Of a stretch of DNA of 8,918 nt, positions 130 through 7,975 are shown one piece after another. The notes below the pieces were generated by a model, which was not told the DNA's origin, did not search any database, and saw only the letters and a program-made list of their open reading frames with translations. The position numbers and the translations under genes are program-made. Each line of letters opens with the position of its first letter. Positions within the stretch are counted from its first letter, which is position 1. The DNA comes from an uncultured Cryomorphaceae bacterium. GTDB taxonomy: Bacteria > Bacteroidota > Bacteroidia > Flavobacteriales > Schleiferiaceae. The stretch covers positions 1 through 8,918 of the forward strand of contig CAJWXO010000045.1 of the NCBI GenBank assembly GCA_913049755.1, written 5' to 3'.

Positions 130-1135
130 TTCTTTCCCCAACTAAGTTTTCCATGAAAAGATTCTCAAATACCTTTCCTTGCTTTCCTTGACCCAAAAGC
201 CACATGGTTTTTGTTATCGTAGCTTCAAGTGTCATATCGCCTGCTGATAGCACTCCTGCATGCCGAAGCATCCTTGAAGATGCATATGCTGGCTGGGAAA
301 CTCCGCCGCCTGGGCATTGAGAGGCATTAATTATTAATACACCTTTATCGCGCGCATCATCTAAAATATCAGATAAGAATTCCAATTTAGGGACATTACC
401 ACTACCATAAGTTTGAAGAATAATTGCGTTTCTACCTGAATTCAGGATCACATTTCTTAAAAAAGACTCATCAATCCCTGGAAAGAATTTCAAAACGGCA
501 ATCTGAGAATCCATTTTAGGGTCAAAAAAATAATGGTCTCTTGGTTTCAAAGTATATTCATGATGAATATCAAGATGCACACCCACATCGACTAAAATAG
601 GATAATTAGGACTTGAAAATGCCTCAAATGCCTGAGAACTTCTCTTGAAAACTCTATTTCCTCTAAATAACTTGTTCTCAAAATAAACGCATACTTCACT
701 AATTGCAGGAGCCTCATTATCCAATCGGCATAGAACTAATTCAACAGAGGTTATTAAGTTTTCACGCCCATCACTTCTTAGAACTCCAATTGGTAATTGA
801 CTTCCGGTTAAAATAATAGGTTTAGAAAAACCCTTTAATATAAAACTCAAAGCTGAAGCTGTATGGGCCATTGTGTCTGTTCCATGAAGAATAACGAAAC
901 CATCATATTGATCGCGGTTCTCATTGAGAATCTCAGCCAATTTTATCCAGTGATTATGATTTATGTCGCTCGAGTCCAGAGGCTCCCACGCTTGAATTGT
1001 TTCGATATCACATTCAAGCTGATTTAATTCTGGGACTTGTCTTAATACTTCATCAAAATTAAATGGGGACAAGTCTCCTTCAGGGCTTTGAATCATTCCG
1101 ATTGTTCCTCCTGTATATATAAGTAGAAGTTTCAC
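122..1135 (-). CDS. ansA: Type I (cytoplasmic) L-asparaginase
   Basis: This 337-aa protein hydrolyses L-asparagine to aspartate and ammonia. The length fits cytoplasmic type I enzymes and there is no signal peptide. Visible active-site elements are the N-terminal TGGTIGM (residues 8-14, nucleophile Thr11), DSSD around Ser56, HGTDTM at 84-89 (Thr86 and Asp87), GSQLPIG plus RSDGREN at 111-126, and FRGNRVFK ending in Lys164, which matches the catalytic lysine of E. coli AnsA. The start is GTG at 1135-1133; its first bases form a 4-nt GTGA overlap with the tatD stop TGA, so translation is probably coupled to tatD. It is the last gene of the inferred sucA-sucB-tatD-ansA unit. The family call is firm; in vivo substrate preference (Asn versus Gln) cannot be read from the sequence. 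Confidence 0.95.
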   Translation of the reverse strand: MKLLLIYTGGTIGMIQSPEGDLSPFNFDEVLRQVPELNQLECDIETIQAWEPLDSSDINHNHWIKLAEILNENRDQYDGFVILHGTDTMAHTASALSFILKGFSKPIILTGSQLPIGVLRSDGRENLITSVELVLCRLDNEAPAISEVCVYFENKLFRGNRVFKRSSQAFEAFSSPNYPILVDVGVHLDIHHEYTLKPRDHYFFDPKMDSQIAVLKFFPGIDESFLRNVILNSGRNAIILQTYGSGNVPKLEFLSDILDDARDKGVLIINASQCPGGGVSQPAYASSRMLRHAGVLSAGDMTLEATITKTMWLLGQGKQGKVFENLFMENLVGERTI

Positions 1136-5971: not shown

Positions 5972-7975
5972 TTGCCATATCTAGAACAGAATATTTTGTC
6001 TGAAAAAAAAACTCGTTATGATATAATTTTTGTTGGCTGGGGCGCTAGCACTTGTATCCTTTTGATTGAAATGTCAAAGCAATTTTTACTTGATGACAAA
6101 AAAGTCCTAATTCTAGAGCCAAGTGAAAAACTTGAGAATGACAAAACATTCTGTTTTTGGGCAAATCCAAAAGATGAGATTTACCGTGATTACGAATCCA
6201 TTATATCTCATCGTTGGAACAAAATCAAAATCAATAATCAGAAAAGTTCATCAATAGAGCCGATAGAATACTTTCATATGGGAAGTAGCGACTTATATGA
6301 TTGGTCGCGCAGACTTTTTTCAAAATACCAAATTGAACATCGAAGAGAAAAAGTTTTAAATATTGAAAGTCATAATTCGATTGTGATCGAAACACCAAAA
6401 AACAAATACTTTACAGAATGGGGTTTTGATAGCAGGCCTCCTGATTTGAAGAACTTCAAAGATGACAGATTTAATATTTCGCAATCATTTTTCGGGTTAA
6501 AAGTTGAGTTAGAACAAACACAATTAGACACTGATGTCTATCATATGATGGATTTCCGGGTACCTCAGGATAAATCAACTCAATTCGTCTACATTTTACC
6601 GTACTCATCCAAAACTGCTTTAGTCGAATTAACTCGATTCGGAAAAGAAATAATTCCTGAAGATGAAGCAAAAAAAACTCTGCATGATTTTATAAAAAAT
6701 TATTTCGGCTCATACAAAATTATGAGCTCAGAAAAAGGAGTAATTCCTATGAGTTCAAAACTACCAAATCAAAAACCTCATAAAAATTTTGTAACTATTG
6801 GCACTCGCGCTGGCAATGTAAAACCAAGCACGGGATATGCCTTCAAAAACATGTATGATCATTCTAAGTTGATATGCAATAATGGACAATTAAGACCGAA
6901 AAAAGTTAAGCTAAATAGGAGATTTCTTTTTTATGATCAATTATTATTGATCATTTTAACAATTTGGCCTTCGCAAGGAAAGCCAATATTTGAACGGTTA
7001 TTTAAGATAAAATCCTCCAATTTTATCTTAAAATTTCTTGATGAAGAAACGACTCTAACAGAAGACTTATCGATGTTTTCTAAACTACAAATATGGATAT
7101 TCATTAAGTCAGTAATATTCTGGTCTTATTGGAAATTAAAAAAAATAATAGTTCCTATTTTAATGATAGTTTACATTCTCATCGACAAAACGCCTCCCTC
7201 AGGAGAATTACTGAATTTATCCCAAAGCAATCTCATTATTATCTCTGTGGGCTTGCTAGTTGTCGGGATCCCTCATGGTGCTCTAGATCACTTGATTGGA
7301 GTCTTTCCGGGAGAAACCAAGATTACGTTAAAATTTGTTCTCTCTTATTTATTTTTAATGCTAATAGTTTTACTGATTTGGTTTTATGCACCTATCATCG
7401 GTCTATTATTTTTTATTCTCTATTCCGCATGGCATTTTGGGCAAGCTGAAACTCAAAATTGGAATATTGATTCTAATTTTATTGCCTATGCTTGGGGGCT
7501 CACTTTATTCAGCTCTCTATTTTTGATCCATTTTGATGAATTTAAAGAGATCATATCAATACTTGGGATCAATTTAAGTAAGAACTCTTTGTTTAACTAT
7601 CCTCTTGTCGGTAATTCACTATTAATTCTCCCTTTAATTTATGCACTATTGAAAAAACATGTAGAATGGTTAATAATTTTACTCTTCCTCTTTTTATCTA
7701 ATTACGAAAGTCTTCTTTTAACCTTTGGGCTTTATTTTATTTTTCAGCACAGCAGAATTGGCTGGACACATCTGAAATCTAAATTAAAAAATTCAAATTC
7801 TAAGATGTTTATAGAGGCTCTTCCTTTTAATTTAGGGGCAATATTTTTGTATTTAATATCCATTTATGTTTTCAAATTAAATGCTGAAGAATGTTTGGCT
7901 TACTTCTTTATTTTCTTATCAGCAATTAGTTTCCCACATGTGTTATGCATGCATATTTTCTATAAAAAAAACTAA
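5972..7975 (+). CDS. crtY-blh: Lycopene beta-cyclase / beta-carotene dioxygenase fusion (CrtY-Blh)
   Basis: This bifunctional membrane protein of up to 667 aa is predicted to cyclise lycopene to beta-carotene and cleave it to retinal. The CrtY part (~1-390) has a beta-alpha-beta FAD fold at 16-49 (GWGAST, 22-27; E49), NDKTFCFW at 56-63, GFDSRPP at 151-157, MDFRVPQ at 193-199, IPM at 258-260, IGTRAGNVKPSTGYAF at 276-291 and FLDEET at 355-360. The Blh part (~392-667) has many hydrophobic segments, GIPHGALDHL at 432-441, SAWHFGQAE at 485-493, FQHSRIGWTHL at 591-601 and FPHVLCMH at 654-661. No in-frame ATG exists before residue 34; start is TTG at 5972 or, fitting other CrtY proteins better, TTG at 5996 (659 aa). 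The join depends on an A8 run at 7138-7145. It is the only plus-strand gene here and looks more AT-rich than sucA. Confidence 0.9.
   Translation: MPYLEQNILSEKKTRYDIIFVGWGASTCILLIEMSKQFLLDDKKVLILEPSEKLENDKTFCFWANPKDEIYRDYESIISHRWNKIKINNQKSSSIEPIEYFHMGSSDLYDWSRRLFSKYQIEHRREKVLNIESHNSIVIETPKNKYFTEWGFDSRPPDLKNFKDDRFNISQSFFGLKVELEQTQLDTDVYHMMDFRVPQDKSTQFVYILPYSSKTALVELTRFGKEIIPEDEAKKTLHDFIKNYFGSYKIMSSEKGVIPMSSKLPNQKPHKNFVTIGTRAGNVKPSTGYAFKNMYDHSKLICNNGQLRPKKVKLNRRFLFYDQLLLIILTIWPSQGKPIFERLFKIKSSNFILKFLDEETTLTEDLSMFSKLQIWIFIKSVIFWSYWKLKKIIVPILMIVYILIDKTPPSGELLNLSQSNLIIISVGLLVVGIPHGALDHLIGVFPGETKITLKFVLSYLFLMLIVLLIWFYAPIIGLLFFILYSAWHFGQAETQNWNIDSNFIAYAWGLTLFSSLFLIHFDEFKEIISILGINLSKNSLFNYPLVGNSLLILPLIYALLKKHVEWLIILLFLFLSNYESLLLTFGLYFIFQHSRIGWTHLKSKLKNSNSKMFIEALPFNLGAIFLYLISIYVFKLNAEECLAYFFIFLSAISFPHVLCMHIFYKKN
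6933..6954 (+). repeat. Perfect 9-bp inverted repeat in the crtY part
   Basis: ATGATCAAT (6933-6941) and ATTGATCAT (6946-6954) pair perfectly around the 4-nt loop TATT, and TTT follows on the plus strand. The repeat lies inside the coding sequence, about codons 321-328. Stem plus T-tract resembles a weak terminator or RNA hairpin, but it is AT-rich and in the middle of a cyclase domain, so a function is not established. Confidence 0.6.
7001..7032 (+). repeat. Perfect 13-bp inverted repeat in the crtY part
   Basis: TTTAAGATAAAAT (7001-7013) and its exact reverse complement (7020-7032) flank the 6-nt loop CCTCCA. It is coding (about codons 344-354), just before the conserved FLDEET motif and about 105 bp before the A8 run at the crtY/blh joint. 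A 13-bp perfect stem is longer than expected by chance at this window size, even in AT-rich DNA. An mRNA hairpin affecting translation, pausing or stability is one possibility. Confidence 0.65.
7138..7165 (+). other. A8 run, off-frame tandem stops and ATG at the crtY/blh joint
   Basis: Eight consecutive A's occupy 7138-7145. In the current frame they read Leu-Lys-Lys-Ile and continue into Blh. In the frame reached by losing one A, the next codons are TAA (7146-7148) and TAG (7149-7151), ending CrtY at about residue 391, a normal CrtY length. An ATG in the blh frame follows at 7163-7165, 11 nt after the tandem stops, and would give a 270-aa Blh of normal length. The site is thus a possible slippage point, sequencing-error point or recent fusion joint. 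Confidence 0.7.

Follow-up and report, generated by a model that had tools for sequence, protein, structure and literature searches.

A crtY-blh gene of Bacteroidota, very probably a genuine bifunctional fusion with an incidental A8 run at its joint

Introduction

The closest described systems are found in a eukaryote and in the Verrucomicrobiota. In Thecamonas trahens, a CrtI-CrtB-CrtYc/d-Blh protein has been linked to retinal production (PMC10016063). Like the product of the gene described here, it combines a lycopene cyclase with Blh in a single chain, with Blh at the C-terminal end. It differs in belonging to a eukaryote, in having four domains and in using a CrtYc/d cyclase, whereas the cyclase here is an FAD-dependent CrtY (PF05834). 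For the rhodopsin clusters of Verrucomicrobiota, a second article reports a CrtIB fusion and lists crtY and blh as separate genes (PMC10284914). CrtIB is also a bacterial fusion of two consecutive retinal-pathway enzymes in a rhodopsin-bearing group, but it joins a desaturase and a synthase, not CrtY and Blh.

Each half of the present gene also has a stand-alone counterpart. Bacterial Blh (TIGR03753 and PF15461) corresponds to the C-terminal half, which exceeds the cut-offs of both models; unlike this counterpart, the fused Blh lacks a separate start and comes directly after CrtY, with no linker. Stand-alone CrtY (PF05834, TIGR01790, and TIGR01789) corresponds to the N-terminal half, which matches PF05834 but remains below the NCBIfam cut-offs. 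Searches of the open PMC literature turned up no description of a CrtY-Blh fusion in bacteria.

The gene lies in a stretch of 8,918 nucleotides from an uncultured Cryomorphaceae bacterium (contig CAJWXO010000045.1), hereafter the window. The original prediction, made from this DNA alone, recognized a fusion of CrtY and Blh and held that it hangs on one base of a run of eight A residues (A8). We consider it very probable that the gene is a genuine, inherited, and old bifunctional CrtY-Blh fusion and that the A8 run at its joint is incidental. We describe the gene and its predicted structure, the joint in relatives, the unfused genes, the phylogeny of both halves, and the retinal pathway of the genomes concerned.

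The fused gene and its neighbors

The open frame extends from 5972 to 7975 on the forward strand (667 residues) and opens at TTG 5972. TTG 5996 is probably the likelier start of the fusion, as judged from the relatives. Indeed, two loci (L002 and L016) have a stop codon opposite residue 6, so that their start must lie downstream of it, and several relatives begin only opposite residue 9 or further on. Four of the 77 loci that span the joint, among the best 80 of 427 (see below), have a stop codon at residues 6-7, which precede the likely start. With this start, the crtY-blh gene, annotated from Pfam and NCBIfam matches as a bifunctional lycopene cyclase / beta-carotene 15,15'-dioxygenase, occupies 5996-7975 (+).

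The lycopene cyclase half matches the PF05834 profile over residues 17-371 (6020-7084, +), with 142.7 bits for a curated cut-off of 23.4 and nearly the whole length of the model covered. PF05834 is a broad model, because it is also matched in 10 of 14 control genomes. The NCBIfam cyclase cut-offs are not reached (87.1 of 209.5 bits for TIGR01790 and 47.4 of 215.2 for TIGR01789), and the usual GxGxxG motif is missing its third glycine. Since this half stays below those cut-offs and lacks that glycine, we infer its cyclase activity; its context suggests that it works like CrtY. In the rows compared, the fused CrtY carries the motif NDKT(F/Y)CFW, vs. (N/E)DRTW(C/S)FW in the unfused CrtY.

The Blh half, a beta-carotene dioxygenase (BCD), covers residues 426-663 (7247-7960, +) and is over the curated cut-offs of both TIGR03753 (124.8 bits for 95.25) and PF15461 (112.1 bits for 28). 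Four histidines, H435, H488, H593, and H656, are invariant across a 45-row alignment and are retained in the unfused Blh rows compared. We take these four residues to be the ones that hold iron in Blh / BCD.

An AlphaFold2 model built on 45 aligned relatives has a mean pLDDT of 88 and a pTM of 0.79. Compared with the PDB, the CrtY half of this model has the fold of FAD-dependent oxidoreductases. Its best matches are geranylgeranyl reductases and other flavoproteins, with E-values down to 1.7e-13 and a target-normalised TM of about 0.36-0.57 for the 50 matches listed. Among these 50 matches, none was recognized for the Blh half, and no solved structure related by sequence was found. Residues 374-404 (7091-7183, +; block pLDDT 90-93) are predicted to form one continuous helix, which carries the joint.

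On the complementary strand, a polyprenyl synthetase gene (PF00348, 7972-8916, -) converges on the fusion; the two ends overlap by 4 nt, and the frame runs off the end of the window. This neighbor is kept in four relatives (L001, L002, L016, and L019), and the five neighboring genes are kept in L001, L002, and L016. Elsewhere in the window, an asparaginase gene and a gene which we take to be TatD-like overlap by 4 nt at 1132-1135 (-).

The joint and its A8 run

The A8 run lies at 7138-7145 (+), within the codons TTA AAA AAA ATA of residues 389-392, where the nearest relatives have AAG AAA. It is followed by TAA (7146-7148) and TAG (7149-7151), both out of frame, which the fused frame reads as part of Ile-Ile-Val. 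Eleven nucleotides after TAG, an in-frame ATG (7163-7165, +; Met398) opens 270 codons up to the stop ending at 7975. This arrangement is exactly that of the original prediction. If one A is taken away, the frame ends immediately as Leu-Lys-Lys TAA TAG.

Two readings draw on this geometry. The first is a miscount of the homopolymer: the true run would be A7, and the window would hold two adjacent genes, a CrtY ending in Leu-Lys-Lys and a 270-residue Blh. The tandem stops and the nearby ATG speak for it, as does the existence of real unfused crtY-blh pairs, one of which (L105) looks much like this picture. The second is programmed slippage of the polymerase or the ribosome on A8, giving the fused protein together with a separate CrtY and perhaps a Blh started at ATG 7163. 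A run of eight A is, in general, a plausible slippage site, and the slipped frame ends at once. In addition, runs of at least eight A are somewhat more frequent in the open reading frame than in synonymous shuffles (four vs. a mean of 1.9, P 0.04). The three other A8/A9 runs of the frame (6003-6011, 6670-6677, and 7964-7971) would slip too, however, which argues against a programmed site at the joint. The A8 run itself appears at the joint in 41% of 2000 synonymous codon shuffles, and an off-frame stop is found within two codons at 27% of the codon positions tested in the frame. The combination of A8 and off-frame stops is thus little more than what chance produces.

Both readings would have Blh begin at ATG 7163, the second one only perhaps, and this codon is not judged to be a start. 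It lies inside the first membrane segment of Blh, so that starting there would remove the first half of that segment. Near the joint, hydropathy over 19 residues peaks at 1.68 on read-through, vs. 0.74 for the 19 residues from ATG 7163, as the original prediction had anticipated in stating that reading through makes the better membrane segment. Moreover, the codon facing this ATG is ATT in L003, whereas L001, L002, and L004, among others, have ATG. A stand-alone Blh from ATG 7163 was rejected on these two grounds, the loss of the segment weighing against a miscount and the lack of conservation in L003 against slippage.

The joint in relatives

All 120 of the database relatives listed (of 1360 found) carry both Pfam domains; the names encountered, "lycopene beta-cyclase" or "beta-carotene 15,15'-dioxygenase," describe one function. 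No relative was found among viral contigs. When genome contigs were scanned, 427 relatives emerged. Only the 80 best were retained for comparison of the joint, so that loci with separate genes would be under-represented among them. In 77 of these 80 loci, a single tblastn alignment spans the joint. The other three stop at contig ends, two of them (L020 and L075) before the joint and one (L030) four codons past it, still open. Not one of the 77 loci has a stop at residues 345-445.

The two nearest genome relatives are fused without the homopolymer. In L001, which is 89% identical, the joint reads TGG GAA TTA AAG AAA ATA ATA GTT, and in L019 it reads TGG AAA TTA AAG AAA ATA ATA GTT; in both, a G interrupts the A run and the frame is the same. 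Over residues 383-400, differences at the first, second, and third codon positions number 1, 0, and 3 with L001 and 0, 0, and 3 with L019. They are mostly third-position differences, like those in the rest of the gene. More generally, the longest A run within residues 386-396 is 2, 3, 4, 5, 6, 7, or 8 nucleotides in 17, 17, 16, 11, 7, 5, and 4 of the 77 loci (from the best 80 of 427), respectively. It therefore reaches at least 7 in nine loci and 8 in four, and is limited to 2-4 in 50.

The fusion does not, then, hang on one base, contrary to the original prediction, since L001 and L019 share the fusion and its frame without having A8, and all 77 loci are open at the joint. A miscount would require the window to differ from every relative that spans the joint: L001, L019, L002, L016, and 73 more loci are fused at this place; they belong to many different assemblies, and some of them lack the homopolymer. 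We give this reading almost no credence. Slippage is little better placed and we regard it as very unlikely, because its substrate is not conserved: the run is broken in the two nearest relatives and is eight long in only the four loci just mentioned. The original prediction had also taken a homopolymer-free joint in relatives as the mark of a genuine, stable fusion, and L001 and L019 have such a joint. That the gene is fused, that this fusion is conserved, and that the homopolymer is not can be regarded as established from the sequences.

Unfused genes and the old gene boundary

Fused and unfused genes coexist in related genomes, which were classed by the length of the frame with the BCD match as fused-size, stand-alone-size, or other. 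In the order of the nearest relative (G001), a BCD match occurs in 70 of 296 genomes, of which 14 are fused-size, 53 stand-alone-size, and 3 other. In the order of G014, the match is found in 35 of 64 genomes (30 fused-size, one of them, G318, broken; 1 stand-alone-size; 4 other). The family of G257, to which G001 belongs, has it in 55 of 88 (29 fused-size, 25 stand-alone-size, 1 other); this sample shares genomes with that of the order of G001. One of the 25 stand-alone-size genomes, G391 (L141), really has a fused gene cut by a contig edge, on a contig of the same length as that of L019. In G318 (L144), the Blh part of a fused gene is split into two frames away from the joint, which may reflect either a real pseudogene or a contig error. 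Of the Blh matches of 254-270 residues, the two examined (P0121 and P0134) were set aside, as they have no initial Met and resemble truncated pieces.

Six of 39 loci with a stand-alone Blh (L105, L106, L109, L113, L135, and L136) also contain crtY. In all six, crtY directly precedes blh and overlaps it when the nearest ATG is taken as the start; the overlap is ATGA in four pairs, 13 nt in L105, and 11 nt in L113. The unfused CrtY ends opposite residues 386-391 of the window protein in 7 of the 10 rows of the joint alignment, and the unfused Blh rows begin, by visual reading of the same alignment, at about 387-391. These ends and starts align at the joint, which therefore coincides with the former boundary between the two genes, without a linker. 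The boundary is where the original prediction had put it, and its domains are those found with Pfam and NCBIfam.

This boundary raises the question of how the fusion arose. The original prediction had considered that a one-base insertion made it. This is not supported for the present genome; it is plausible for an ancestor, five of the six unfused pairs being frame-compatible. An ancestor with overlapping crtY and blh genes may have gained one base, or undergone a frame change of the same net effect, with the A-rich joint as the site. This is compatible with a genuine inherited fusion, the event being ancestral and not one that occurred in the window. The six pairs overlap by 4-13 nt, and one additional base, net, would bring both genes into a single frame in all of them except L113. 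In L105, CrtY ends with AAA AAA TAG, Blh is in another frame, and the overlap is ATGGAAAAAATAG, so that an A run stands at the place of the fusion joint. The position of the unfused CrtY C-termini points the same way, but in the other 3 of the 10 rows the aligner scattered the tail of CrtY. Four-base ATGA overlaps are common in bacteria and hence say little. Besides, the frame relation of L113 is different, its CrtY and its Blh cluster with different rows, and trees do not establish the split pairs as the sister group of the fusions. On balance, we rate this origin somewhat below an even chance.

Phylogeny of the two halves

For the trees, fused rows were thinned from 81 to 55 (FastTree) and 37 (IQ-TREE). 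L054 (motif not found), L019, L059, L080, and L050 (partial), and L117 (5' cut) were dropped beforehand, and the partial protein P0173 was omitted from the IQ-TREE Blh tree. With FastTree, the CrtY halves of the 55 fused rows group together with a support of 0.88. With IQ-TREE, one branch separates those of the 37 fused rows from 10 unfused ones (SH-aLRT 95.6). In the free Blh tree, the fused rows are not one clade; in the Blh trees, L113, P0216, and L137 fall among or beside them on long, weakly supported branches. A tree constrained to keep the fused rows together is not rejected (p-AU 0.548), its likelihood being 1.89 higher than that of the free search. One origin of the fusion would be compatible with the trees of both halves. 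The fusion probably arose once, at the old gene boundary.

The retinal pathway in the genomes

Fifteen genomes, taken from 15 of the fusion loci, were searched for the rest of the pathway. Each has a single BCD match, and the frame that contains it, 658-696 residues long, is the fusion itself. A rhodopsin match is present in 14 of them (not in G007), and in G012, G013, and G014 the rhodopsin gene adjoins the fusion. CrtI-family matches over the cut-off are found in 14 genomes (not in G008) and CrtB-family matches in 13 (not in G001 or G008); many of the 15 are metagenome-assembled genomes (MAGs), so that such absences are weak evidence. Full-length PF05834 matches beyond the fusion occur only in G005, which has two of about 380 residues; the other extra matches are short or partial.

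In G005, two contigs (C10 and C28) bear near-equal crtI-crtB-crtY clusters, with a stand-alone CrtY of about 380 residues, in addition to the fusion; the duplication is possibly due to contamination of the MAG. Three other genomes, G286, G194, and G136 (loci L103, L091, and L104), have a Blh match and no PF05834 match over the cut-off. Their beta-carotene may come from another type of cyclase or from uptake, or the genomes may be incomplete.

Concluding remarks

In the genuine inherited fusion that we favor, the CrtY half, with its FAD fold, would act at the membrane and cyclise lycopene into beta-carotene, and the membrane-bound Blh half would cleave beta-carotene into two retinals, which would supply the rhodopsin of the cell. 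Both enzymatic activities are predicted, and beta-carotene may be handed over from one half to the other. The A8 run would be the incidental outcome of Lys-Lys-Ile codons in AT-rich DNA. A broader proposal, which we put forward only tentatively and consider rather unlikely as a whole, is that the frame changed once by one base, in an ancestor whose crtY and blh overlapped, and gave a linkerless bifunctional enzyme leading from lycopene to retinal. Its joint would have become one helix, beta-carotene would pass directly between the active sites, and many Bacteroidota with a rhodopsin would now depend on this enzyme alone for their retinal.

The question of the A8 run is settled enough for the gene no longer to count as a possible error, and its annotation should name it as a bifunctional CrtY-Blh. 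The fusion family is of moderate interest. Because fused and unfused forms exist within one family of genomes, the advantage of a fusion compared with two overlapping genes can be tested. Finally, counting crtY and blh by the best single model may misjudge the capacity of these Bacteroidota to make retinal.
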